From an uncultured Poribacteria bacterium (lineage in GTDB: Bacteria > Poribacteria > WGA-4E > WGA-3G): 64,000 nt of DNA. Under the pieces are notes generated by a model, which worked only from the letters and a program-made list of their open reading frames with translations, made no database searches and was not told the origin of the DNA. This document shows positions 44,993 to 61,219 of this stretch, one piece after another. Location: contig OX638316.1 of the NCBI GenBank assembly GCA_951812525.1, positions 3,590,506 through 3,654,505 of the forward strand, given 5' to 3'. Numbering within the stretch: the stretch's first letter is position 1; every line of letters begins with the position of its first letter. The translations under genes and the position numbers were made by a program.

Positions 44993-46045
44993 ATGTTATA
45001 TTCAATAATGATAAACCAAGGACTCGAAACAATTGCACGCCAGGAGTTAACCGAACGCTTTAACGACACAGGACACCTGAAAATTCTTGACCGCAAACCG
45101 CAGCGACTTCTCTTCCAGTACACAGGTAACCCGCGCGACCTATTATCCCTACGAACAGCAGAGCATCTTTTTTTGGTCCTGAAGCAGATGCGAAAAATGA
45201 CGCGCTCACGGAGTTCTCTTGCAGCATTGAGCGGTCCACTCTCCCGCTTTAATTTTAAAGAGGCATTTGACTGTTGTCGACAGGTCGGTATCAACATCCG
45301 GAAGCGCACTTCGTTTCGAGTAACGAGTCGGTTATCAGGAAAACGCAACTTCCGGCGACGCGACTTGCAGCAGGTAGTAGAAAGGGCGTTTTTGGATCGC
45401 GGATGGTATTTGGCAAAATCAAATTCAGCGTTAGATGTCTGGGCAGAGGTGCACGGAGACGACGGTTACATCAGCATCAAGCTCTCAAAAAACGATATGG
45501 CACAACGACCGTATAAACAGGCACATATCCCCGCATCGCTCAAACCGACCATCGCGTATAGTATGGCGCGACTCTCGCGACCACATCCGGAGGATGTCTT
45601 TTTAGACGCTATGTGCGGTGCTGGTACGATTCTATTGGAACGCGCCCTGATGGGCCGCTACCGTTACCTAATCGGCGGCGATATTTTTGCTGAGGCGTTA
45701 GACGCCACTAGAACGAATTTCGGTAGACAACATCAACCCCGCCAATTCTTCCACTGGGACGCACGCACCTTACCGCTACAGCCAAACACAGTTGATAAAA
45801 TCGTCTGTAACCTCCCATTCGGTGAGACTATCGGAAACCTCCCTCAACTCACGAATCTATATCGACAGAGTCTCAGAGAATATGAACGCGTACTAAAATC
45901 GAGAGGAAGGATGGTGCTACTCACCTCACAACGCGCACTGTTTGAGAGTGAACTGAAACAACGCCGTACGCTCAAGGTTGCCCAGCGATTGACAGTCGAT
46001 GTCCGCGGCATGCGTGCATGGATATATGTCATTCGTTTCGCATAG
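44993..46045 (+). CDS. THUMP-domain RNA guanine-N2 methyltransferase (RlmL/TrmN-like)
   Basis: The first ~150 residues form a ferredoxin-like plus THUMP region (GLETIARQEL, FNFKEAFDCCRQVGINIRKRTSFRV). The SAM-binding part begins DAMCGAGTILLERAL, continues GGDIFAEALDATRTNF, and the catalytic motif is CNLPFGETIG, a variant of N-P-P-[FY]. The enzyme should methylate a guanine N2 in tRNA or 23S rRNA. The 350-aa length fits the Trm14/TrmN type. Confidence 0.85.
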   Translation: MLYSIMINQGLETIARQELTERFNDTGHLKILDRKPQRLLFQYTGNPRDLLSLRTAEHLFLVLKQMRKMTRSRSSLAALSGPLSRFNFKEAFDCCRQVGINIRKRTSFRVTSRLSGKRNFRRRDLQQVVERAFLDRGWYLAKSNSALDVWAEVHGDDGYISIKLSKNDMAQRPYKQAHIPASLKPTIAYSMARLSRPHPEDVFLDAMCGAGTILLERALMGRYRYLIGGDIFAEALDATRTNFGRQHQPRQFFHWDARTLPLQPNTVDKIVCNLPFGETIGNLPQLTNLYRQSLREYERVLKSRGRMVLLTSQRALFESELKQRRTLKVAQRLTVDVRGMRAWIYVIRFA

Positions 46046-46065
46046 CATAACACACCGCACATTAC

Positions 46066-46094
46066 GGTAGGCGAGGTTTCCCCACCTCGCCTCT
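46066..46094. terminator. GGCGAGG hairpin between convergent genes
   Basis: TAGGCGAGGTTTCCCCACCTCGCCT followed by CTTCTT lies between the methyltransferase gene and the convergent oxidoreductase gene. One mismatch in the stem leaves a usable 9-bp pairing. It is probably a terminator. Confidence 0.5.
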
Positions 46095-46152
46095 TCTTAC
46101 GCGCCAATCCCTAAATCCGTGAAATCTGCGTAATCCGCGATTCAGACAAAAC

Positions 46153-47244
46153 CTAAATTTCGGGAACCCTAACCGCTACCTCTTTCCCTGTTTCGTGCGA
46201 ACGGAAAATACCGTCCATAATCACGTTGGTAAGCAAGACTCCGTCTGGCGGTATTGGTGACGGTGCATCTGCTTTGACAGCCTCGCGAAACGCCGTCATC
46301 TGTGCTTCCCAAACATCAACTTCTGGGAATCCTGACAACCGGATCGTTGTCATCCCTTCAGGTGGGTTCGGCTCTGCAGTCAATCCTTCCGATTCAACCA
46401 ATTTCTTAAGCTCATTTGTATAGGAATCCGCATAAACAACCGGTCCATCCAAAGAAATACCCATCTCTTTACCGAGGCAGAAACTTGGACCGAGCGAATC
46501 CTGATGGATTGCCCAAGAGATCTTAAACACCATCACGCTGCCATCTTCAAACCGTACCCACGCCACACCGAACTCTTCAACATCCATGATGCCGCGGAAC
46601 TGGGGATCTTGCTGAGAGATGTAATCCTCCGTGATAGCAGAAACGCGCACAGGTTTCGGATAACCCATCGCATACAGTGAGTTGTGCATGTTATAGACAC
46701 CGATGTCAACGGTTGCACCGGCACCCGCAGTCTTTTTATAGATGAACGTCCGTCCGGGATTCCCGCGCCGTCTACCGCCTGAGGATTCGGAGTAGTAGAT
46801 GTCTCCGAGTAAGCCTTCATCGATGACCTTCTTTGCGAATTGGAGTCTCGGATTAAACGTACTATGGAGACCGATTTGCAAGATTTTACCTGAAGCCTTT
46901 GCTGCCCGCGCCATAGCAGTGGCATCTGGGAGTTTAGCTGCCATCGGTTTTTCACAGAAGACGTGTTTACCGGCGTTCAGTGCGGCGACAGTGGGTCGGC
47001 GATGTCCCTGATTGTAGGTGCAGACACTGACTGTATCGATTTCATCCATCTCAAGCATTTTGTTGTAGCTTGTGAAGACGTTCTTTTTAGGGACACCCCA
47101 CTGTTCGGCGGCTTCGTTTGCCTTACTTTTGATGATGTCGCAAACAGCGACGATCTCAAAGCCGCCTACTTTCATGTAGGTGCGCTGGTGTGCGCGTGAG
47201 ATGCCACCTGTACCAACAATACCGACTCGGATAGTCATAGTCAT
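46153..47244 (-). CDS. Gfo/Idh/MocA-family oxidoreductase, paralogue A
   Basis: The 363-aa protein has the Rossmann start VGIVGTGGISRAHQRTY, the DI cofactor segment (IVAVCDIIKSKA), VSVCTYNQGHRRP and the family CEKPMA motif. The C-terminal beta domain contains AGAGATVDIGVYNMH, with the conserved D-x-G-x-(x)-H catalytic-site pattern. It probably oxidises a sugar or polyol with NAD(P). It is nearly identical to the next gene upstream on the same strand; a tandem duplication is evident. ATG 47244 or 47238 may be the start. Confidence 0.93.
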   Translation of the reverse strand: MTMTIRVGIVGTGGISRAHQRTYMKVGGFEIVAVCDIIKSKANEAAEQWGVPKKNVFTSYNKMLEMDEIDTVSVCTYNQGHRRPTVAALNAGKHVFCEKPMAAKLPDATAMARAAKASGKILQIGLHSTFNPRLQFAKKVIDEGLLGDIYYSESSGGRRRGNPGRTFIYKKTAGAGATVDIGVYNMHNSLYAMGYPKPVRVSAITEDYISQQDPQFRGIMDVEEFGVAWVRFEDGSVMVFKISWAIHQDSLGPSFCLGKEMGISLDGPVVYADSYTNELKKLVESEGLTAEPNPPEGMTTIRLSGFPEVDVWEAQMTAFREAVKADAPSPIPPDGVLLTNVIMDGIFRSHETGKEVAVRVPEI

Positions 47245-47298
47245 CTTCTCCTTGTAGGTAGAACTATGGTAGGTTTTAGAATTACTTTTACACTCTGA

Positions 47299-47426
47299 CC
47301 GGCGAAGTTAGGAAACTTCGCCTACCGGTGTGTTACGTCGCCAGTGCCGCAAACTGATAGTTTGCAGGCTGCCAAATGCAGCATAGTAGACAGCACAATA
47401 CACAAGACACAAACTAAAAGTTTGTG
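47299..47426. repeat. Cluster of three palindromes between the duplicated genes
   Basis: CCGGCGAAGTT-AGG-AAACTTCGCC (about 47299-47322), GCAAACTGATAGTTTGC (47349-47365) and CACAAACTAAAAGTTTGTG (47408-47426, followed by CTAC) lie in the 218-bp gap. Each belongs to a palindrome type seen elsewhere in the window. Confidence 0.7.
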
Positions 47427-47462
47427 CTACAAAGGGAACGCTACCGTGAAACGCTATTATCC

Positions 47463-48548
47463 CTAAATCTCAGGCACTCGAACCGCCACCTCTTTCCCGG
47501 CTTCATGCGATCGGAAGATGCCGTCCATAACTACATTTGTAAGCAGCACACCCTCTGGCGGTATTGGCGACGGGGCATCTGATTTGATGGCTTCACGGAA
47601 CGCGATCATCTGTTTCGCCCAGGCATCGACCTCTGGAAATCCTGACAATTGGATCGTCGTCATTCCTTCTGGTGGGTTCGGTTCTGCAGTCAACCCTTCT
47701 GATTCGACGAACTTTTTGAGTTCACCGCCATATTCATCGGCATAAATCACCGGTCCGTCCAAAGAGATACCGGCTTTTTTACCGAGATGGAAATTGGTGC
47801 CAAGTGAGTCTTGATGAATCGCCCAAGAGATCTTAAATACCATCACGCTGCCGTCTTCAAACCGTATCCACGCCACGCCGAACTCTTCGACATCCATGAT
47901 ACCGCGAAATCTCGGATCTTGCTGAGAGATATAGTCCTCTGTAATCGCTGAGACGCGCACGGGTTTCGGATAGCCCATTACGTACATTGATCTGTGCATG
48001 TTATAGACACCGATGTCAACGGTTGCACCAGCACCTGCGGTCTTTTTATAGATGAACGTATGCCCTGGATTTCCGCGCCGTCTGCCCCCGGCGGATTCGG
48101 AATAGTAGATGTCGCCGAGCAATCCTTCATCGATGAGCTTCCTTGCGAATTGGGTTTTCGGTGCGAATGTGGGATTGAGACCGATTTGCAAGATTTTACC
48201 CGATGCCTTTGCTGCCCGAACCATGGCTGTAGCGTCTGGAAGGTTTGCCGCCATCGGTTTTTCACAGAGGACGTGTTTACCGGCGTTCAGTGCAGCGACA
48301 GTGGGGCGGCGATGTCCTTGATTGTAAGTGCAGACACTGACCGCATCAAGTTCGTCCATTTCAAGCATCTTGTTGTAGCTTGAGAAGGCGTGCTTTCTTG
48401 GAACTCCCCACTCATCTGCAGCTTGGTTTGCCTTACTCTTGATAATATCGCAGACAGCGACGATCTCGAAGCCGCCTACGCTCTTATAATATCTCTGGTG
48501 TGCGCGCGAGATGCCACCCGTACCAATGATACCGACTCGGACTGTCAT
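47463..48548 (-). CDS. Gfo/Idh/MocA-family oxidoreductase, paralogue B
   Basis: This 361-aa protein has the same motifs as paralogue A (VGIIGTGGISRAHQRYY, CEKPMAANLPDATAM, AGAGATVDIGVYNMHRS). By eye it differs at scattered sites, mostly conservative, and ends with the same EVAVRVPEI. Two copies in direct tandem suggest recent duplication, perhaps with slightly different substrates. AGGAG-like GAGGAGATAAT precedes the ATG on the minus strand. Confidence 0.93.
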   Translation of the reverse strand: MTVRVGIIGTGGISRAHQRYYKSVGGFEIVAVCDIIKSKANQAADEWGVPRKHAFSSYNKMLEMDELDAVSVCTYNQGHRRPTVAALNAGKHVLCEKPMAANLPDATAMVRAAKASGKILQIGLNPTFAPKTQFARKLIDEGLLGDIYYSESAGGRRRGNPGHTFIYKKTAGAGATVDIGVYNMHRSMYVMGYPKPVRVSAITEDYISQQDPRFRGIMDVEEFGVAWIRFEDGSVMVFKISWAIHQDSLGTNFHLGKKAGISLDGPVIYADEYGGELKKFVESEGLTAEPNPPEGMTTIQLSGFPEVDAWAKQMIAFREAIKSDAPSPIPPEGVLLTNVVMDGIFRSHEAGKEVAVRVPEI

Positions 48549-50566: not shown

Positions 50567-51973
50567 ATGTCTGAGACCCCTTATAGCATCTTCAATTCGC
50601 GGGCCCCAGAGGATATCCATCGCGAAATTCAGGAAGTCTATCTTGAAAACGCCCGTCCTTGGGTCATTGGGTATAGTGGCGGAAAAGATTCAACCACAGC
50701 ACTTCAACTTATCTGGTATGCTCTTGCTGAGTTAGAACCCGAACAACGGAAATATCCAGTCTATGTGATTTCATCTGATACGCTGGTCGAGACACCAGTA
50801 ATTGTTAGCTACATAACTGGCACTTTAGAACGAATTGAAAAGGTCGCAGGCGAACAAAAGATGCCGTTTCAGACAGCTCTCGTCCGTCCAAGGACTGAGG
50901 ATACTTTTTGGGTTAATCTCATCGGTAAGGGGTATCCTGCTCCCTACAGCCGCTTCCGATGGTGCACCGACCGAATGAAAATTCAGCCAGCGAATCGGTT
51001 TATTTTGGACAGAGCCTCTGAGCATGGCGAGGTTATTTTGGTGCTTGGGGTTCGTAAAGGTGAAAGCTCAACACGGGATCAAGTCTTGAGTTTACACCGC
51101 ATGAAAAATTCACTCCTCTCACGACACACAACGCTTCCTAATGCTTTTGTTTATACACCTGTGGTCGATTTTACAATGGAAGATGTCTGGATGTACCTAT
51201 TGTCCAATCCGTCCCCGTGGGGTGGTGATAATCGACAATTGGTGACACTGTATAGGAATACGAGTGCACAGGGTGAGTGTCCGCTTGTGGTTGATGAAAT
51301 GACTCCTTCTTGTGGGAACAGTCGCTTTGGGTGCTGGACTTGCACAGTCGTAACTAAAGACAAAGCGATGGAGGGTCTCATTGATAACGGTGAGGAGTGG
51401 ATGCTACCGCTACTTGAGTTCCGGGACTTCCTCGCCGAAACCCAAAATCCTGAGAAGAAACCTGAAATCCGTGAACATCGACGACGAAACGGGCAGATTA
51501 CAATCCTCAATAATAAACTTGTTCACGGCCCCTACACGCTTGAATTCTGCAAGGAACTCTTAAGAAAACTGCTCGCAACTCAGCAGCAAGTGCGTGAAGA
51601 GGGACCTGACTCAGATATGAAACTCATCACTGACGATGAACTTGAAGAGATTCGTAGAATCTGGCGAACTGAACGTCAAGATTGGGAAGATGCTGTCCCA
51701 CAGATTTACGCAAAAACTGTTGGGGACCGCGATTGGATTCTTGATGATACAATCTCTTTTACTGAGAAGGATAAAGAAATCTTGGCAGCAGTCTGTGATG
51801 AAAAAGGAATCCCTGTTACCCTTGTCGCAAAATTGCTTGATACAGAACGACAGATGGATGGAATGAGTCGGCGTGCCGGAATACAATCTCGGATTGACGA
51901 AATATTCCACGAGGACTGGCGTTCAGAAGAAGAAGTCCGTGCCAATTTAGATGGCGGTGACTCCCAGCAATGA
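50567..51973 (+). CDS. dndC: DNA phosphorothioation sulfurtransferase DndC
   Basis: DndC is a PAPS-reductase-like ATP pyrophosphatase with an Fe-S cluster that activates DNA for sulfur insertion. The PP-loop is SGGKDST at residues 37-43. The family segments YVISSDTLVETP, RFRWCTDRMKIQP and the cysteine group CGNSRFGCWTCTVV are present. The 468 aa are near the usual size. It overlaps dndD by 4 nt (ATGA). No dndA (cysteine desulfurase) or dndB is next to it; a housekeeping IscS may supply sulfur. Confidence 0.93.
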   Translation: MSETPYSIFNSRAPEDIHREIQEVYLENARPWVIGYSGGKDSTTALQLIWYALAELEPEQRKYPVYVISSDTLVETPVIVSYITGTLERIEKVAGEQKMPFQTALVRPRTEDTFWVNLIGKGYPAPYSRFRWCTDRMKIQPANRFILDRASEHGEVILVLGVRKGESSTRDQVLSLHRMKNSLLSRHTTLPNAFVYTPVVDFTMEDVWMYLLSNPSPWGGDNRQLVTLYRNTSAQGECPLVVDEMTPSCGNSRFGCWTCTVVTKDKAMEGLIDNGEEWMLPLLEFRDFLAETQNPEKKPEIREHRRRNGQITILNNKLVHGPYTLEFCKELLRKLLATQQQVREEGPDSDMKLITDDELEEIRRIWRTERQDWEDAVPQIYAKTVGDRDWILDDTISFTEKDKEILAAVCDEKGIPVTLVAKLLDTERQMDGMSRRAGIQSRIDEIFHEDWRSEEEVRANLDGGDSQQ

Positions 51974-53982
51974 TCCTCCACAAACTCACACTTAACAATG
52001 TAGGCTTGTTCCGTGGTACACAAGCTATTCATCTCACACCAAACGGTAGGGGACCTATAATCCTAATCGGTGGGATGAATGGTTCTGGCAAAACGACGCT
52101 CTTGGATGCAGTCCGTCTTTGTCTGTATGGTAGGCGTGCACTTGGCAACCGGGTCAGCCTTAATGAATATCACGAGTATCTCGCTGCAATGATCCATCGC
52201 GGATCCGATTCAGCAGTGCCTTTAAACCGTGCTGCTGTATCGCTTGAATTTGAGTACGCACATGGTGGGGAAACAAAGCAGTATCGGGTTGAACGCTCAT
52301 GGCAACAGGAGAGTTCAAACCTGCGTAGCGTTAACGAAGGCTTGACAGTTTCCGAAAATAACTGGTTAGATATCGAATTCGGTGCAGAACATTGGCAAGA
52401 TCGTATTGATGAATTCATCCCAATCGGAGTGTCACAATTCTTCTTTTTCGATGGTGAGGACATCCAGAAGTTAGCGGATGACTCCAGTCACGACCTTTAT
52501 CTTGCTGAGTCAATTAAAGCATTGCTTGGAATTAACTTGGTAGAGAGGTTGCAATCGGACTTGCGTGTTTATGCAAATCGCTTGGTTAAGCGCGACAGTC
52601 CAGAACCAGTACAGCAAGAGATTGAGGCAGTAGAATCAGAAATTGCAAAACTTAAGTCTGCGCTCACGGACGCACACGCACACGCAGAATCTTTGGATAC
52701 GCAAATTGCAAAACTCGAAACACGAATTACTCGACAAGAGTCGCGTATTGCAGCCGAAGGAGGTAGTTATGCCGAAAGACGGGAAAGCCTGAAATTACAG
52801 CAGGGGCAACTCCTTGCTGATATTGAGGCATTAGAGGATAACATTCGAGATTTATGTGGAGATCTATTTCCGTTCGCTCTTGTCCCTGATCTGCTCAAAC
52901 GATTGGTAGTGCGCCTTCGTAAGGAGATAGAGTTAGACGAATGGGAAGCGAAAGACCGCGTGTTAGAGACACAGAACACGGAGCTACTTAAGACTATCAC
53001 AGCTGGAACATTTTGGGATGATTCGTCCTTATCCGAGTCACAGATTGATACTGTTCGTACCAAGCTTACGCCACTTCTAAAAACACGACTTGAGCGTCCA
53101 AAGATACTTTGCGATTTCAAAAAAATCCGGGAACGCTCTCCTTCAGAATGTGATCGTCTGTTAGGGTGGATTGATGCCTGTCTAAATGATGTGCCCCAAG
53201 AGTTTCGCGAATTGAACGATGCCCTGCAAGAGGCACAATCGGAACTGCAAAAGGTTGAACAGGCTCTTCAGAAAGTACCAGCCGAAGAGGTATTGAAGCT
53301 ACTGGTTGAAAAACTATCAACATTAAATCAAACACTTGGGCAACTCCATAAACAGGAGCAAGAGGCAGAGCAGTCTATCCGTACGTTATCGTATCAAATT
53401 GAGGTGGCGGAGCGAAAATTGGATAGCCTGCGTTACACCCAGCAGCTTGGGGAAGCTCACATCCAACGCCAAACCCGAGTGGGAGCTGTACAGTCGGTCC
53501 TTGCCGCGTATACAGCACAGCTCACACAGGCAAAAATTGCTACATTGGGCGATGCCATCGCGGAAGGGTTCAATCAACTTTCACACAAGTCGGATCGAAT
53601 TAAGCGAGTTGAACTTGACCCGCAGACTTTTGCTGTAACGCTCTATGATACCCAGAATCGAGCACTGTTAAAAGAGGAGTTATCGGCTGGTGAGAAGCAG
53701 ATTTACACGACTGCGCTCTTGTGGGCATTGGCGAGAACCTCTGGCAAGGCATTGCCGATGATTCTTGACACACCCCTCGGACGTTTGGATAGTAGTCACC
53801 GTCAGCTTCTTGTTGAACGTTATTTTCCCTATGCCAGCCATCAAATTATTCTGCTTTCAACCGACACTGAGGTTGAAGGAGATCTCTGTTCGCTGTTGGA
53901 ACCCCACATTTCGCATACTTTCCATTTGTCGTATCAACAAACCGAGGGACTTACTACAATTAAGGAAGGCTATTTCGGGTAG
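51970..53982 (+). CDS. dndD: DNA phosphorothioation ATPase DndD
   Basis: DndD is an SMC/Rad50-like ATPase of the phosphorothioation complex. The 670-aa protein has Walker A (GGMNGSGKTT, 34-43), an FFFDGEDI segment near 155, a long coiled coil with central turn, the signature-like LSAGEKQIYTTALLWAL and Walker B (MILDTPLGRLD). The end matches DndD (QIILLSTDTEV). It overlaps dndC and is followed by dndE after 6 nt. Confidence 0.93.
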   Translation: MILHKLTLNNVGLFRGTQAIHLTPNGRGPIILIGGMNGSGKTTLLDAVRLCLYGRRALGNRVSLNEYHEYLAAMIHRGSDSAVPLNRAAVSLEFEYAHGGETKQYRVERSWQQESSNLRSVNEGLTVSENNWLDIEFGAEHWQDRIDEFIPIGVSQFFFFDGEDIQKLADDSSHDLYLAESIKALLGINLVERLQSDLRVYANRLVKRDSPEPVQQEIEAVESEIAKLKSALTDAHAHAESLDTQIAKLETRITRQESRIAAEGGSYAERRESLKLQQGQLLADIEALEDNIRDLCGDLFPFALVPDLLKRLVVRLRKEIELDEWEAKDRVLETQNTELLKTITAGTFWDDSSLSESQIDTVRTKLTPLLKTRLERPKILCDFKKIRERSPSECDRLLGWIDACLNDVPQEFRELNDALQEAQSELQKVEQALQKVPAEEVLKLLVEKLSTLNQTLGQLHKQEQEAEQSIRTLSYQIEVAERKLDSLRYTQQLGEAHIQRQTRVGAVQSVLAAYTAQLTQAKIATLGDAIAEGFNQLSHKSDRIKRVELDPQTFAVTLYDTQNRALLKEELSAGEKQIYTTALLWALARTSGKALPMILDTPLGRLDSSHRQLLVERYFPYASHQIILLSTDTEVEGDLCSLLEPHISHTFHLSYQQTEGLTTIKEGYFG

Positions 53983-53988
53983 GGTGCT

Positions 53989-54210
53989 ATGCAGTTAAAT
54001 CGAATTCACATCTCCGAGGATTCTCGCAATAAATTGAGCATTCTGAAAGGACGGACGGGATTATTGCCGAATGTCTTGGGTAGAATTGGTTTGATGCTCT
54101 CGCTCGCAGAAGTCAACGAACCCGAGCTTGATGCCGATGCTACGGACGGATCCGAGTTTAACCGGTTTACTTTAATGGTGAAATGGGATCCGCTGATTGT
54201 AGCACTTTAA
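53989..54210 (+). pseudogene. dndE: Truncated DndE
   Basis: The 73 residues match the start of DndE: LNRIHISEDSRNKLSILKGRTGL, PNVLGRIGLMLSL and SEFNRFTLMVKWDPLIVAL. DndE normally has about 110-130 residues and continues with a helical segment ending in a conserved R-A-H-x-N-R-G motif. Here a TAA follows directly after the first two thirds, and no R-A-H-x-N-R-G sequence occurs downstream in any frame that I can see. The frame instead leads into a TIR-domain remnant. The truncation may abolish phosphorothioation, unless the short form still binds nicked DNA. Confidence 0.8.
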
Positions 54211-54501
54211 GGATTTTATTTCATAGTGTGTTTCTCAAGTGAATACCATGGGCGTGAAAAAACGTACGTGAACGATGAGCTAAAAACGGCAATTGATGAA
54301 CTGCGTCAATGTTCCGCTGATTGAGTATGGTTTGTTCAAGTAAAATTGAACGAATGCGAAATCCCTGATATTGACATTGGTGGTGGCGAAACTCTACAGG
54401 GCCTTCAATATGTTTCACTCTATGAGGACTGGAATGCTGGGATTCAACGTATCCTCAACGTTATTCAATCCGAACAACCTACACCTTACTATGGGTGGTA
54501 G
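54211..54501 (+). pseudogene. TIR-domain remnant (5' truncated, one nonsense codon)
   Basis: Reading on in the dndE frame past its TAA gives FIVCFSSEYHGREKTYVNDEL and LKTAIDELRQC, then TGA at 54322-54324, then VWFVQVKLNECEIPDIDI, GGGETLQGLQYVSLYEDW and NAGIQRILNVIQ, up to TAG at 54499. This is the C-terminal two thirds of a bacterial TIR domain (EKTYxNxEL, then IPVxLNExEIPD, GGGETL, YEDW). The TGA stands where such proteins usually have Arg. The N-terminal part, including early TIR strands, is missing. It is probably the scar of a deletion that joined dndE and a TIR gene. Confidence 0.82.
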
Positions 54502-54622
54502 TCCTGTTAAAGGTAGAGATACTCAGAGTAAACAGGACAATGATGTCGGAGATCAAGACTATCTGGAACGCGGTTCTAAGAGGCACAAAGATGGTAATTT
54601 AGATTATACAACGGAGGATAAG

Positions 54623-55504
54623 ATGGGATTAGCGGATTGGTTTAGCACGTTTTGCTCCAATATACAAATTCAAAATAGTGGAACAATCTCCACACGCTAT
54701 AAAAATATTACTCGTCGATTAAATACAGATTTTTGGGACACAACCTCTGATACTTCACACAGTCTCTATGTTGGTTCGTATGGTCGAAATACTGCTATTA
54801 AGGGATTTAGCGATCTTGACATGATTTTCCAACTGCCCTCCTGGATGTACAAGCGATATGACGAACATAAGGGGAACGGACAGTCGGCTCTCCTTCAAAC
54901 GGTAAAAAAGTCGATAGAAAAGAGGTACTCAAGTACAAGTATCAGAGCTGACGGACAGGTGATTCTAGTTCCGTTTGATGATGGTATCACATTTGAAGTA
55001 GTCCCTGCTTTTTTAAAAACGGATGATAGTTATATTTTTCCTGATGCAAATAATGGTGGACGGTGGCGTGTAACGAACCCCAAACCCGAAATTGCTGCTA
55101 TTAGAACTAGAAATAGCAACTGCAACAACAACTTAGTTCCTTTGTGCCGGATGATGCGAGCATGGAAATCAAAATGGGCTGTGCCGATTGGAGGACTTTT
55201 AGTTGATACGCTTGCTTATCAATTTATCGACGATTGGGAATACAAGAACAAGTCTTTTTTTTACTACGATTGGATGTGTAGAGACTTTTTTCTTTTTATG
55301 GCAGACCAAGACAAGGAGCAGGTATACTGGCGGGCACCAGGTAGCGGACAATATGTCTATGGAAAAGGTCTCTTCCAATGGAAAGCTAAGAGATGCTACA
55401 ATATCTCACTTGAAGCAATAGCACACGAACAAGCTGATCCGAAACGAGAGTTGTCAGCTAAACAAAAATGGAGGGAGATTTTTGGCACCTCATTCCCAAG
55501 TTAA
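54623..55504 (+). CDS. SMODS-type CD-NTase (CBASS cyclic-nucleotide synthase)
   Basis: The enzyme makes a cyclic di- or trinucleotide upon phage infection. The nucleotidyltransferase motif is GSYGRNTAIKGFSDLDMIF (Gly-Ser 51-52, Asp 64 and 66), and the third acidic residue is in GITFEVVPAF (Glu 125). A C-terminal helical domain follows. The 293-aa length fits. ATG 54623 has ACGGAGG 5 nt upstream; the open frame reaches back to 54371 but that part overlaps the TIR remnant. It overlaps the next gene by 23 nt. No Cap2/Cap3 genes accompany it. Confidence 0.88.
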   Translation: MGLADWFSTFCSNIQIQNSGTISTRYKNITRRLNTDFWDTTSDTSHSLYVGSYGRNTAIKGFSDLDMIFQLPSWMYKRYDEHKGNGQSALLQTVKKSIEKRYSSTSIRADGQVILVPFDDGITFEVVPAFLKTDDSYIFPDANNGGRWRVTNPKPEIAAIRTRNSNCNNNLVPLCRMMRAWKSKWAVPIGGLLVDTLAYQFIDDWEYKNKSFFYYDWMCRDFFLFMADQDKEQVYWRAPGSGQYVYGKGLFQWKAKRCYNISLEAIAHEQADPKRELSAKQKWREIFGTSFPS

Positions 55505-56066
55505 TGACTCACCCGAGTCCGTTCAGGTTCTCGAAGGACAACTTCGTGAGTGTTTTGGTAGAGTCATTTATTCACACAAAACGCATGAAAAATGTGCCGA
55601 CATTCTTCTAAAACGCTTATCACAAATTAAATTTTGGCAAATTGTTCTATCTCTAATAACAACAGGCGGGTTCATTTCGACGTTTTTCGGCGTAGAAACA
55701 ATAGGTTCAATTATTGGAAGTACTGTTTCAGCAATTTTTCTCGGTTTGACACTATACACAAAGGATTATAATCTGGCAGAACTTGCTCAAAAGCATAGGC
55801 AGGCAGCAAGTGATATTTGGCTCATCAGAGAAAAGTATCAGTCGTTAATTACGGATTTAGTAATCGGTGGAAAAACATTGGAGACTATACAGGAAGAAAG
55901 GGATGTTTTAATGGGGGATCTTCATTTGGTTTATTCTAGTGCTCCAAGTACTACATATAAGGGTTATAAAAATGCACAGCAGGCTTTGCAGTCTAGTGAG
56001 GATATGACGTTTTCAGATGAGGAAATTGATGCATTCTTACCTAGTGAAATAAAAAGAGGCAATTGA
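55482..56066 (+). CDS. SLATT-domain two-TM effector
   Basis: The 194-aa protein has two membrane helices (FWQIVLSLITTGGFISTFF ~52-70 and IGSIIGSTVSAIFLGLTLY ~74-92), and the family segments YSHKTHEKCADIL before and LAELAQKHRQAASDIW after them. SLATT proteins are predicted pore-forming effectors paired with SMODS cyclases. The start is TTG at 55482 with GGAGGGA inside the CD-NTase end, giving a 23-nt overlap and likely coupled translation. The product would respond to the nucleotide made by its neighbour. Confidence 0.85.
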   Translation: MAPHSQVNDSPESVQVLEGQLRECFGRVIYSHKTHEKCADILLKRLSQIKFWQIVLSLITTGGFISTFFGVETIGSIIGSTVSAIFLGLTLYTKDYNLAELAQKHRQAASDIWLIREKYQSLITDLVIGGKTLETIQEERDVLMGDLHLVYSSAPSTTYKGYKNAQQALQSSEDMTFSDEEIDAFLPSEIKRGN

Positions 56067-56156: not shown

Positions 56157-57203
56157 TTGGCACTTACAAGTGAATACATAAATGACATTCTTTCTCTAAA
56201 TGGAGATGCTCTTGAGGATGGCGAGAGCGAGAAATTGGAATTTAAGGAGCAGTTTAGTTTATCTAGTTTACCAGATTATTACAAAAGTTTCGCAGGATTT
56301 GCGAACAATCAAGGAGGATACTTGATATATGGTGTTCAAGACTCTCCACGAGTTCCTGTAGGTTTGTCGGAAAGAAGCCTTGACCAATTCAAAAATATTG
56401 ATCCTCAAAGGATAACAGGAGATTTACTTGAAATATTTTCAGCAAGTATACAGTGGGAGCCGGCAGAAGTTGTCACTAATGGCAAAATCTATGGAGTTTT
56501 CAAAATTCATGAGGCACCTAAGAAACCTATAATGGCAAAAAAGAATTATGGGAGAAATCAACCTATAAAAGCAGATGAGGTATATTACAGATATAACGGA
56601 AGAACACAGAAAATCCAATACGCTGAGTTGGAAGCAATTATTCAAGGAAGAATCCAGGAGATCGTTGATCAATGGATGGATTTGATGTCTAAGATTGCTA
56701 GGATTGGTCCACAGAATGTAGCACTACTTGATACTGAAAAACGTTCTCTTGAGACCGACGATAATACAATTCTGACCATTGATGAAGAATTATTTCAGAC
56801 GATCAAATTTATCAAAGAAGGAGATTTTTCAACGAGTGATGGAGCTGAAACGCTTAAAATTGTCGGGGATGTCGTACCAATTGTAGAGGTAGTTAAAAAA
56901 GAAAAGGAAAATCTTCTAGCGGAGTATCCTCTTTCTGCCACAGATTTAGCAGAAACGGTAAAAGAACAACTACCAAATATTTCGCGGAGTAAGGTTTGGG
57001 AAACAATAAAAAATAACGATATGAAAAATAATGTAGACTACTCGGCATATAATTTTCGCAATAGAAAGCAGGAAGAACTATACAAAGAGAGTGGTCAATT
57101 GCCAGTTGGAACACCAAGTATCTACAACCACAGGGCAGTAGACTTCATTGTCACTAGACTGACAAGTCTAGATTCTACTGCTCAAGCAAATGAACAAGAT
57201 TGA
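56157..57203 (+). CDS. AlbA_2 (Schlafen-like) domain protein
   Basis: Residues ~20-165 form an AlbA_2/Schlafen core: ESEKLEFKEQFSL, FAGFANNQGGYLIYGV and YYRYNGRTQKI. The rest is helical with a possible winged helix-turn-helix (SATDLAETVKEQLPNISRSKVW) near residue 265. AlbA_2 proteins are found as regulators and nucleases in defence loci. The TTG start has GAGGAAAGG 7 nt upstream. It lies 90 nt after the SLATT gene in the same direction. Confidence 0.82.
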   Translation: MALTSEYINDILSLNGDALEDGESEKLEFKEQFSLSSLPDYYKSFAGFANNQGGYLIYGVQDSPRVPVGLSERSLDQFKNIDPQRITGDLLEIFSASIQWEPAEVVTNGKIYGVFKIHEAPKKPIMAKKNYGRNQPIKADEVYYRYNGRTQKIQYAELEAIIQGRIQEIVDQWMDLMSKIARIGPQNVALLDTEKRSLETDDNTILTIDEELFQTIKFIKEGDFSTSDGAETLKIVGDVVPIVEVVKKEKENLLAEYPLSATDLAETVKEQLPNISRSKVWETIKNNDMKNNVDYSAYNFRNRKQEELYKESGQLPVGTPSIYNHRAVDFIVTRLTSLDSTAQANEQD

Positions 57204-57275: not shown

Positions 57276-58250
57276 TTATTCTCTGAACACTTCCTTACGA
57301 TGCCACTTCAGTGCATTTGGAGCTGGATGATGCAAATCCTGTTCAGGCAACAGTATAGACTTATCGCGTTGTTCAGTCAGAAGCCATTCTGTCGGCTGTC
57401 GATCCGACATAAGCGGTGAAACTAGAACTTTATATGTGTTGCTCAGTGAAATCAAGCCTCTGTCAAATGCCCAATGATGCAACTTACAAAGTGAGATTCC
57501 ATTTCGTATATCGTTGTTGTGCGCGATCCTCCACGGAATAATGTGGGCTGCTTCTGTCGCACTTTCACCATCCATTGTGACAATACGCAATCGACAAATA
57601 GCACACGTGTAGTTGTACAGTCGCATAATTTCCCTACGGAAAGCTGCATTGCCAATTCGATTTTCTTTTTTAGTTGATTCTGGGACTACCTGATATGAAA
57701 ATGGGTATTCAGTAACTTCTTGGATCAGTAATTGACCATGTTCTCCAATTTGTTGCTCTTCTACGAAGATACTTTCGATTACTGACTTGGAATCTGGAAA
57801 ATGCTTATTAATTAAGGTTTGACGAATTACTTCCCGACTCTGTGGATTAGTGAGTAAAACAAAGAATTCCGTATCCAAACTCGCGTGATTGACAATTTCA
57901 AGGAGATCGGAAACCTTTCTTATTTTACGGGTAACTTTTAACTTCTCTTCCTTACCTGCGTTCGGATGAAGATGCCAAAATCTGCCTTTTTTTCTCCCTT
58001 GCAAATGAAAGAATGGCATGGCGAAATTGTGGGTTCTGTTTGTTACAACTTTTGACCAATACTTCAGGAACATTTCAGCCAAGTCAGGGGAAGGAAAGAT
58101 TTTGTTTTTATCAATCTGTCCTTGTCTAATCAAATCAATGACTGCTAATAAGAGAAGAGGTCTGTGAGGTGCAGGTCCCTCGCTTGCCTTTTCTCCCCCT
58201 CGTAAGCCTTCCATCTTTTGCATGTATTTTTGTAGAATGTTGTTAGACAT
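57276..58250 (-). CDS. HNH endonuclease with possible sulfur-binding-type N-terminus
   Basis: The 324-aa enzyme has a complete HNH site: CAICRLRI (216-219), AAHIIPWRIAHN (His 236) and LCKLHHWAFDRGLI. The N-terminal ~150 residues contain PAPHRPLLLLAVIDLI and AMPFFHLQG ... FWHLHP, which resemble the fold start of the sulfur-binding domain in phosphorothioate-dependent HNH restriction enzymes. The same start also occurs in other HNH proteins, so this is an inference. It is convergent with the AlbA_2 gene. The ATG at 58250 has AAGGAAG upstream. Confidence 0.78.
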   Translation of the reverse strand: MSNNILQKYMQKMEGLRGGEKASEGPAPHRPLLLLAVIDLIRQGQIDKNKIFPSPDLAEMFLKYWSKVVTNRTHNFAMPFFHLQGRKKGRFWHLHPNAGKEEKLKVTRKIRKVSDLLEIVNHASLDTEFFVLLTNPQSREVIRQTLINKHFPDSKSVIESIFVEEQQIGEHGQLLIQEVTEYPFSYQVVPESTKKENRIGNAAFRREIMRLYNYTCAICRLRIVTMDGESATEAAHIIPWRIAHNNDIRNGISLCKLHHWAFDRGLISLSNTYKVLVSPLMSDRQPTEWLLTEQRDKSILLPEQDLHHPAPNALKWHRKEVFRE

Positions 58251-58609: not shown

Positions 58610-59434
58610 ATGAAACTATTTATGATTATTGCTGGCGTACTATGCGCCGCAATGCTTCTGGCACCGACAGCCGACGCTGCGAATAAGGTAGATATCTTTA
58701 TCTACACTGACACCGTACAGTGGATCGGTCAAGCACAAGCCGTAGAAGAGGCTGAAGTATTGGCGGACCTACTTGACGGACAAGATGGAATCGGAGAACT
58801 CATTCTCCACGGTCCAGCGAAAACTGTCGAAGCGTGGACGAAAAAGCACACCGTGGACAACGGACACCATCTGATTGTCATGTTCGGTGACACGCCGCCC
58901 GAAATTTATGATGTTGGACAAGACGCGAAGAAAGAGACCGTCGCGGAGCGGTTCCTTGATGCTGGTAATACCTTCTCGAACAGTGCCGACTACTTTTTCT
59001 GGGGACAGGGAGGCAGAAATCAGGAGGGTGGTATCAAGAATATGATGGATATCCCCGATATGGTGCAATGGGACGATAACACAGCTATGTCTGTCACGAA
59101 AGAAGGTAAGAAACTTACCCCGTCCCTCGACGATTATGCAACAGATCGTCCTTTCCACGTTGATAAACTCAAAAACGATTGGGTACTGGAGATCGCATTC
59201 GCTTCAGATAGTGGAGATCAAAAAGGTGATCGTTGTGATCCGTGTATTGTCCACAATACAAAGACGAATGGACGACTTATCCAGGTTTACCAAACCGCTA
59301 ACCAAGATGACCCGAAAGGCGAGGTCATTGCCGAAATTATTCTCAACTACTACCTTGAGGTTGTCGGCGCACTTGACGTTGACCCACAAGATAAGCTTCC
59401 CGCGTTGTGGGGAGACATTAAAAGAAGGAGATAA
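58610..59434 (+). CDS. Secreted ThuA/GATase-like protein with TWG-type tail, paralogue 1
   Basis: A signal peptide (MKLFMIIAGVLCAAMLLAPTADA) precedes a Rossmann-like domain with IYTDTVQWIGQAQAVEEAEVLADLL, LIVMFGDTPPEIY, YFFWGQGGRNQEGG and IKNMMDIPD. The order of strands resembles ThuA or class I glutamine-amidotransferase folds, but no catalytic triad is identified. The C-terminus QDKLPALWGDIKRRR is the TWG-type tail with LWG in place of TWG. GGAG precedes the ATG. Its last codons AAA AGA AGG AGA hold the Shine-Dalgarno of the next gene. Confidence 0.7.
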   Translation: MKLFMIIAGVLCAAMLLAPTADAANKVDIFIYTDTVQWIGQAQAVEEAEVLADLLDGQDGIGELILHGPAKTVEAWTKKHTVDNGHHLIVMFGDTPPEIYDVGQDAKKETVAERFLDAGNTFSNSADYFFWGQGGRNQEGGIKNMMDIPDMVQWDDNTAMSVTKEGKKLTPSLDDYATDRPFHVDKLKNDWVLEIAFASDSGDQKGDRCDPCIVHNTKTNGRLIQVYQTANQDDPKGEVIAEIILNYYLEVVGALDVDPQDKLPALWGDIKRRR

Positions 59435-59440
59435 CATTTA

Positions 59441-60244
59441 ATGCGAAATATTTTGCTTTCACTAACGCTTATCGCGTTACTGGCACTTCCTGTAGTACCC
59501 GTTCTTGCTGCCAGTGAAGTCGCTATCTACACAGGCGTAACGCAGTGGATCGGCAAGGCACAAGCCGACGAACAGGCACAAATCTGTGTCGATATGCTCA
59601 ACGATGCTGGCATTTCTAACACATGGTACGATGCCGAGGGCGATACGGGTGCCTTGGCTGACTGGATGGAGAGTGTCACAGGCGACGACGGCTTGGATAT
59701 CTGTGTCCTCTACGGTGATTTCCCGCCGGACCTCTATCCCGAAGGTAACACACAGACGGATGGTTCCATTGCCGAGACCTTCATCGAAACCACAGACGGC
59801 GATGTATTCATCAATCACGCCGACTACATGTTCTGGGGCCTCGCTGGTAGAAATGAAGAGGGTGGACTAAAGAATATGATGGATATCGATGGGATCACTA
59901 TGTGGGACGATAATACCGATATGACGGTTACCACCGAAGGTGCAGCTATCTCTCCCACGCTCGCCGATTTCCAATCTGACCGTCCCTTCCACGTTGATGA
60001 ATTGGAAGGCAACTGGGAAGTAGAAGTCTCCCTCGCACAGAACGATGACGGCACTCGTGCCGATCCGATTATCGTCCGCGACGGAAACCTCGGCAGACTG
60101 ATTCCGGTGATTCAGACAGCGAACGGCGATGAAGAGAAAGGCGCAGTTGCAGCTGAAATTATCACTTGGCTCATGGCAACAACACCTGTTGAACCTGCCG
60201 ACAAGCTCTCCACAACGTGGGGTGCCTTGAAAGCAGTCCGGTAG
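59441..60244 (+). CDS. Secreted ThuA/GATase-like protein with TWG tail, paralogue 2
   Basis: It has the same architecture as its neighbour 6 nt upstream. A signal peptide (LLSLTLIALLALPVVPVLA) is followed by IYTGVTQWIGKAQADEQAQ, ICVLYGDFPPDLY, YMFWGLAGRNEEGG, LKNMMDID and MWDDNTDMTVTTEGA. It ends ADKLSTTWGALKAVR. It is a tandem paralogue with conserved blocks but diverged surface. A perfect hairpin follows (60268-60306). Confidence 0.7.
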   Translation: MRNILLSLTLIALLALPVVPVLAASEVAIYTGVTQWIGKAQADEQAQICVDMLNDAGISNTWYDAEGDTGALADWMESVTGDDGLDICVLYGDFPPDLYPEGNTQTDGSIAETFIETTDGDVFINHADYMFWGLAGRNEEGGLKNMMDIDGITMWDDNTDMTVTTEGAAISPTLADFQSDRPFHVDELEGNWEVEVSLAQNDDGTRADPIIVRDGNLGRLIPVIQTANGDEEKGAVAAEIITWLMATTPVEPADKLSTTWGALKAVR

Positions 60245-60267
60245 GAGAGATTCTCAATCTCAATATT

Positions 60268-60306
60268 CTGTTGATAGGCGCGCCTACAAAACGCTCCTAT
60301 CAACAG
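60268..60306. terminator. Perfect 11-bp hairpin
   Basis: Arms CTGTTGATAGG (60268-60278) and CCTATCAACAG (60296-60306) with a 17-nt loop that itself contains GGCGCGCC-like sequence. It stands behind the second paralogue and probably ends that transcript. Confidence 0.55.
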
Positions 60307-60346
60307 AGCTTTCCAGTCCATATAATACCCCTCTACAGAATTAGAA

Positions 60347-61219
60347 ATGAGATTTAGCACATCCAGTATCCTGTTTACACTCTTGGCGCTTTCTTTATTT
60401 GTGTTTGCCTGCCATGATCCAATAGAGCCCTCTCTTGTTGGCACCCTCCCTATTGAAACGATCACGACTCCCAAAGATAATGCTGTGATGGTTTATGTTC
60501 CTGCTGGTGAGTTTCTCATGGGAACCAATGACGCAGAGATTGAACACTACAAAGAGATTTTCCCGCTCCGCGATATCGCACGATATGACAACGAACGTCC
60601 GCAGCGGACCGTATATGTTGATGCCTTCTACATTGATAAGTTTGAGGTGACAAACCAACAATACAAGCAATTTCTCAGTGAGACTGGGTATATACCTCAG
60701 CACTACTTGGATCGTCTCCCGTATAATGCACCTAACCTTCCTGCTGTTGTCTTAAAATGGGAAGATGCTGTCGCTTATACCGTGTGGGCTGGTAAAAGGT
60801 TACCTACTGAGGCAGAGTGGGAGAAAGCTGCACGCGGCACAGATGGACGTACCTGGCCCTGGGGCAACGTATTTGACGATACGAAACTCAGTGGTAACGA
60901 CGGCAGAGGACACAGAGATGGTTATAAAGAGACGGCGCCCGTCGGGCAGTTTCCACAAGGTGCGAGCCCTTACGGTGTGCACGATATGGCGGGCAACCTC
61001 TGGGAATGGGTATCCGATTGGTACGACCCGAACTATTACCGTACCAATCCTCCTAATGTCAATCCAAAGGGACCCGAAACGGGTGATGGGCATGTCTTAA
61101 AAGGCGGCGGTTGGGCGGAGAATTTAGACTTCACCCGGTGTGCCAGTCGACTGGGTGGAGAACCCGGTTCTCTCCTGCGCGGATTCCGATGCGTCTTGGC
61201 TGTGTCTCCTGAAGAGTAA
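60347..61219 (+). CDS. SUMF1/FGE-domain lipoprotein
   Basis: A lipoprotein-type signal (ILFTLLALSLFVFAC) leads into a formylglycine-generating-enzyme fold: YVPAGEFLMGTND, YIDKFEVTNQQYKQFL, GKRLPTEAEWEKAARG, WPWGN, GVHDMAGNLWEWVSDWY and the final RGFRCVLA. True FGE enzymes use two Cys near the C-terminus; here one Cys occurs at RCAS and one at FRC, in other positions, so sulfatase activation is not assured. The usual fate of this family is a secreted binding or modifying protein. Confidence 0.88.
   Translation: MRFSTSSILFTLLALSLFVFACHDPIEPSLVGTLPIETITTPKDNAVMVYVPAGEFLMGTNDAEIEHYKEIFPLRDIARYDNERPQRTVYVDAFYIDKFEVTNQQYKQFLSETGYIPQHYLDRLPYNAPNLPAVVLKWEDAVAYTVWAGKRLPTEAEWEKAARGTDGRTWPWGNVFDDTKLSGNDGRGHRDGYKETAPVGQFPQGASPYGVHDMAGNLWEWVSDWYDPNYYRTNPPNVNPKGPETGDGHVLKGGGWAENLDFTRCASRLGGEPGSLLRGFRCVLAVSPEE

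Follow-up and report, generated by a model that had tools for sequence, protein, structure and literature searches.

The locus studied here raises the question of how a dnd operon with intact dndC and dndD genes came to end in a dndE gene that stops after 73 codons and is followed, in the same frame, by the remains of a TIR domain. It lies in a stretch of 64,000 nucleotides (hereafter the window) of a single-contig Candidatus Poribacteria genome of 5.06 Mb, and the related bacteria of this phylum are sponge-associated. The distribution of phosphorothioation (PT) systems is patchy, and PT-dependent nucleases may exclude them.

The broken dndE and its neighbours

The features of the window, with positions counted from its first letter, are as follows.

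44993-48548, both strands: left flank of the hotspot, a methyltransferase (plus) and two Gfo/Idh oxidoreductase genes (minus), named by our reading of the sequence; they flank most related loci
50567-51973, plus strand: dndC, intact, 468 amino acids (TIGR03183, E 2e-170; PP-loop SGGKDS and Cys motifs kept)
51970-53982, plus strand: dndD, intact, 670 amino acids, ABC-type ATPase (TIGR03185, E 1.4e-161; Walker A, Walker B and signature motifs kept)
53989-54210, plus strand: dndE stub, 73 of about 120 codons, then TAA
54204-54220, no strand: interval within which the dndE/TIR homology junction falls (dndE alignment ends at codon 73; TIR alignment runs from 54211)
54211-54501, plus strand: TIR-domain remnant without its N-terminal part, with a TGA at 54322-54324
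54623-55504, plus strand: CBASS-type CD-NTase (SMODS), 293 amino acids (PF18144, E 3.5e-55; PADLOC cyclase, E 8e-143), taken from residue 85 of a longer open reading frame
55482-56066, plus strand: SLATT_4 effector with two TM segments (PF18186, E 8e-68; PADLOC 2TM effector)
56157-57203, plus strand: Schlafen AlbA_2-domain protein (PF04326, E 3e-17)
57276-58250, minus strand: predicted SBD-HNH endonuclease, convergent with the dnd operon, the longest open reading frame extending to 58328
58610-61219, plus strand: right flank of the hotspot, two paralogous secreted proteins and a SUMF-like protein, named by our reading of the sequence; they flank many related loci

Translation of 53989-54600 gave a 73-residue DndE piece closed by a TAA at 54208-54210, followed in the same frame by GFYFIVCFSSEYHGREKTYVNDELKTAIDELRQCSAD, the TGA at 54322-54324, and VWFVQVKLNECEIPDIDIGGGETL...YYGW, closed by a TAG at 54499-54501. 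The first piece matches the start only of the DndE profiles (PF08870, positions 1-69 of 111, E 2e-10; TIGR03184, 1-68 of 104; PADLOC DndE, 4-75 of 128), and intact orthologues are 119-135 amino acids long; about 40% of DndE is gone, comprising the remainder of the second ribbon-helix-helix and the C-terminal helix. The 96-codon piece beyond it begins at position 53 of PF13676 TIR_2 and matches through position 122 of 122 (E 1.3e-4), below the gathering score, as expected of a fragment, and thus lacks the N-terminal strand of a complete TIR domain; intact TIR proteins from this phylum share 54-66% identity with it (E 1e-30 to 1e-37). Judged from these matches, the DndE and TIR identities of the two pieces are far beyond chance. 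A first-pass annotation, made from the letters of the sequence, had described both the truncation at 54210 and a decayed TIR C-terminal part in the dndE frame with one TGA, and the translation and the profile searches it called for bear this out. The common frame, a one-in-three outcome by chance, is meaningless, since a stop parts the stub from the TIR piece. Assuming an error of assembly or base calling at 54208 would not bring dndE back, because the DNA beyond is TIR and not dndE, and a search of the whole window genome found no second dndE copy. The genome thus has the full-length dndC and dndD expected of a functional DndCDE PT system, with their motifs, and lacks its intact dndE.

The same annotation had considered the scar recent and ascribed it, tentatively, to a deletion that took the end of DndE and the start of TIR. 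Recent origin agrees with the 92% identity of the stub to the nearest intact dndE, that of G035, and with a single stop in 96 TIR codons; the stub is altered at codons 64-65, which are nearly or fully invariant across 15 complete genes. The end of DndE and the start of TIR are indeed lost, but the idea that two adjacent intact genes lost the DNA between them found no support: a TIR gene occupies this place in none of 20 related dnd loci, and intact TIR relatives lie at other genomic places. We also considered the TIR piece as a lost member of the CBASS operon and rejected this, as TIR is absent next to the related CD-NTase/SLATT pairs of L036 and L086. That pair (54623-56066) lies 38 bases after dndD in L036 and upstream of dndC in L086.

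Identification of the nuclease gene rests on a profile of 11 copies of its family, which matches the sulfur-binding domain SBDHga1 (8h0l, E 1.3e-25) and the HNH endonuclease 6yex (E 0.002), and on the catalytic His/Asn/His residues, whose AAHI, RNG and LHHW columns are invariant in the 11 aligned copies. The window protein itself matches PF13391 (E 7e-13) and scores 135.4 bits against NF045808, short of the cut-off of 180. A structure prediction from the 11-sequence alignment was too poor for use (pLDDT 39.6). Those SBD-HNH enzymes that have been characterised cleave PT-DNA and act against dnd+ plasmids by restriction, and fewer than 3.6% of SBD-HNH genes lie near dnd, non-functional dnd clusters having been suggested for the outliers (PMC7461809).

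Complete dndE and SBD-HNH genes across the phylum

A DndD search of whole genomes retrieved 20 related dnd loci, and comparison of their gene content split them in two, complete-dndE loci never having an SBD-HNH gene and SBD-HNH loci never having a complete dndE. Widening the comparison to 85 genomes of the phylum, searched for DndC, for the DndE family and with an SBD-HNH profile, yielded 26 scorable dndC loci, and here a recurrence appeared that the first-pass annotation had missed: 11 of them, the window included, lack a complete dndE (eight lost dndE, three lost both dndD and dndE), and all 11 carry an SBD-HNH gene 3′ of the cut, against none nearby in the 15 loci with a complete dndE. Fisher's test on this table gives p = 1.3e-7 with kinship ignored; the tree-aware figure is more trustworthy, the DndC tree requiring at least eight state changes and the independent supported pairs, no more than six in number, all pointing in the same direction (sign test, p = 0.031). 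G015, with a broken dndD on a contig of 3.2 kb, was kept outside these counts. Order-wide, an intact SBD-HNH gene of the window's family is present in 0 of 15 complete-dndE genomes versus 46 of 58 others (some of the 46 being partial), and the only complete-dndCDE genome with a copy of this family, G049, has one without its C-terminal end (L117, G049:C14, 4962-5792). With SBD-HNH as the starting point, a second genome collection returned the same truncated loci, together with many SBD-HNH loci without dnd genes.

About 10 different breakpoints were found among the 11 truncated loci. Five cuts fall inside dndE, at about codon 73 (window), 24 (G040), 30 (G016, where the stub has also lost its start codon), 15 (G025, where the cut abuts the SBD-HNH tail directly) and 12 (G053). 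Others lie at the dndD stop (G031), the very end of dndD (G055) and the dndD C-terminus (G061), or early in dndD, at codon 24 in the sisters G008 and G023, which have the same junction, and at codon 20 in G002. Most loci occupy one chromosomal hotspot between the methyltransferase/Gfo-Idh block and the block of secreted paralogues and SUMF-like protein. Three types of allele occur there: one has SBD-HNH by itself, one combines complete dndCDE with different cargo (such as Pbe-type modules and DndB-like genes), and one is the hybrid of truncated dndC(D) and SBD-HNH. Where these alleles carry the SBD-HNH gene, it sits at the right, and recombination between allele types is therefore a plausible source of the hybrids. 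The tandem paralogues encoding secreted proteins (58610-60244), the first without a Pfam match, mark the right flank in many Poribacteria.

The exclusion was observed within this phylum. SBD-HNH genes from another one, apparently Cyanobacteria, have 32-37% identity to that of the window and adjoin complete dndC-dndD-dndE, which rules out a universal incompatibility of SBD-HNH and dndE; the fold alone therefore does not force exclusion, and specificity or regulation must differ there. In these loci (L124-L135, phylum of G130), SBD-HNH lies upstream of dndC-dndD-dndE on the same strand in a conserved arrangement, and a CxC/PbeC-like ATPase gene often precedes it.

Probable self-restriction and its alternatives

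The truncation of dndE, its recurrence at different breakpoints and the mutual exclusion of complete dndE and SBD-HNH in the phylum were observed directly, and we consider it fairly probable that self-restriction by the resident SBD-HNH nuclease explains the recurrent loss of dndE beside it. The window would then be a hybrid hotspot allele, its left dndCDE part cut within dndE and joined to a right part with the TIR fragment, CBASS and SBD-HNH. Loss of DndE would stop phosphorothioation by the truncated operon, which should be PT-dead because dndE deletions elsewhere abolish PT (PMC9521924; PMC8569181). An SBD-HNH enzyme of the window family would recognise and cut PT-marked DNA, any recombinant that brought it together with a complete dnd operon would attack its own chromosome, and those whose operon is broken would be the sole survivors; selection, not chance, would hold the two apart. 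The distribution of the genes suggests that the PT mark and its cutter may be unable to coexist at these loci. Counting against self-restriction, several genomes with a complete dndE contain a weaker HNH paralogue whose match to SBD is faint, and G024 has two SBD-HNH copies and, elsewhere, a Dnd-like set of another kind, in which DndE is fused to HerA. The SBD-HNH genes beside complete operons in the other phylum count against it too, as does the lack of decay in dndC and dndD of the truncated loci, which could reflect continued function. The Dnd-like set of G024 (L116, G024:C72, 2900-9674) encodes a DndC-like protein (43% identity), an ATPase resembling PbeC/DndD, a HerA-type ATPase with a DndE domain fused to it, and a nuclease of the GmrSD type.

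The state of the remaining dnd genes bears on a rather unlikely alternative, a function independent of DndE, in which DndC with DndD, or DndC alone, would work beside SBD-HNH after repeated switches to a reduced system, the nuclease taking over a DNA-binding or nicking role or acting as effector. In all 11 truncated loci, dndC, and dndD where kept, has no stops and keeps its motifs, and omega is 0.04-0.15, not above that of complete operons. No disabling mutation occurs in 31.5 kb (11 dndC and 8 dndD genes), whereas two such events, the start-codon loss in the G016 stub and the TGA in the window TIR piece, fall in the roughly 1 kb of leftover sequence; were every one of these sequences equally neutral, this skew would have a chance of 9e-4, in a rough count that includes a TIR piece which may have died before the junction formed. 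Taken roughly, the count favours some constraint on dndC and dndD. The sisters G008 and G023, with one dndD scar in common and a dndC dS of 0.50 at omega 0.046, also speak for lasting function, as do nicking of DNA by an archaeal DndE in vitro (PMC9239217) and the SBD-HNH relatives that adjoin complete operons in the other phylum. However, the junction of the sisters is far more alike than their dndC genes, and its history is therefore likely one of recombination. The stubs at the other truncated loci are also little changed and dS between loci is about 1, a scale on which most scars look young, and intact dndC and dndD therefore need no selection; open genes of low omega would be expected of young scars, but of continued function as well. 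Three loci also lack dndD, so that there is no fixed reduced set, SBD-HNH in the phylum occurs mostly without any dnd gene, and PT needs dndE where this has been tested (PMC8569181). That a selected, DndE-less function of DndC, with or without DndD, was paired with SBD-HNH as a PT-type defence branch of many origins in Poribacteria is doubtful. A few codons from the junction, near the 3′ end of SBD-HNH, the nuclease genes of the sisters G023 and G008 (L112 and L113) drop sharply in similarity, with DNA identities of about 50-65% in blocks of 100 bases, which looks like a replacement of the nuclease later than the scar.

Neutral exchange of cargo, by which recombination at the hotspot would replace everything 3′ of dndC or dndD, with breakpoints anywhere and SBD-HNH at the right of a common allele by happenstance, is unlikely to account for the pattern. 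Defence islands often exchange cargo, all allele types share the same flanks, and SBD-HNH keeps to the right whether dnd genes are present or not, all as such exchange would have it; but breakpoints should then also fall in the short gap after dndE, and the other 3′ cargo (Pbe-type modules, DndB-like genes, helicase/ParB-like sets) follows a complete dndE in 15 of 15 cases, while SBD-HNH does so in 0 of 11. A one-off deletion between an adjacent dndE and TIR gene, with the nuclease irrelevant, or an assembly artefact, is highly improbable. The local anatomy by itself fits a deletion, but TIR stands beside dndE in none of the 20 related loci, the window genome is one contig, and the loss of dndE in the same setting at ten further loci, in independent assemblies, largely refutes this account.

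With self-restriction as the favoured reading, the hotspot offers eleven natural cases with a nameable broken gene (dndE, or dndD and dndE), about 10 breakpoints and clean controls. Closest to this in earlier work is the suggestion that the few SBD-HNH genes found close to dnd may adjoin non-functional clusters (PMC7461809). Should dndC and dndD turn out to be selected at the truncated loci, DndE would be less indispensable than assumed.

Relation to known systems

Compared with DndABCDE, the window has intact orthologues of dndC and dndD with catalytic motifs and a recognisable DndE N-terminus, but its dndE is truncated. A published survey described DndD and DndE as an obligate pair and put absences down to poor assemblies (PMC10853773); the truncated Poribacteria loci are exceptions to this pairing, and that of the window comes from a genome assembled as a single contig. 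No dndE-less PT system was found described in the literature searched, which had most subscription journals outside it. The nuclease resembles the PT-dependent SBD-HNH enzymes EcoWI, SprMcrA and Bsp305I, and ScoMcrA, which has an SRA domain, in its N-terminal SBD and C-terminal HNH, and like them its family also stands alone in genomes without dnd; unlike them, it scores 135 bits to NF045808, recurs beside truncated dnd operons and is known here from sequence. PbeA- and PbeC-like genes in several complete-dndE relatives at the same hotspot recall DndCDE with PbeABCD-type modules, which are absent in the truncated loci examined, with SBD-HNH in their place. The pair of CD-NTase and SLATT two-TM effector has exactly the two genes of a minimal CBASS and is an ordinary neighbour, of which the TIR piece is no part. 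Finally, IscS-DndBCDE-DndI (PMC11662687) likewise pairs one HNH nuclease with Dnd genes, but DndI is a DUF262-DUF1524 protein and PT spares self, whereas the window nuclease is of the SBD-HNH type and its dndE is broken.
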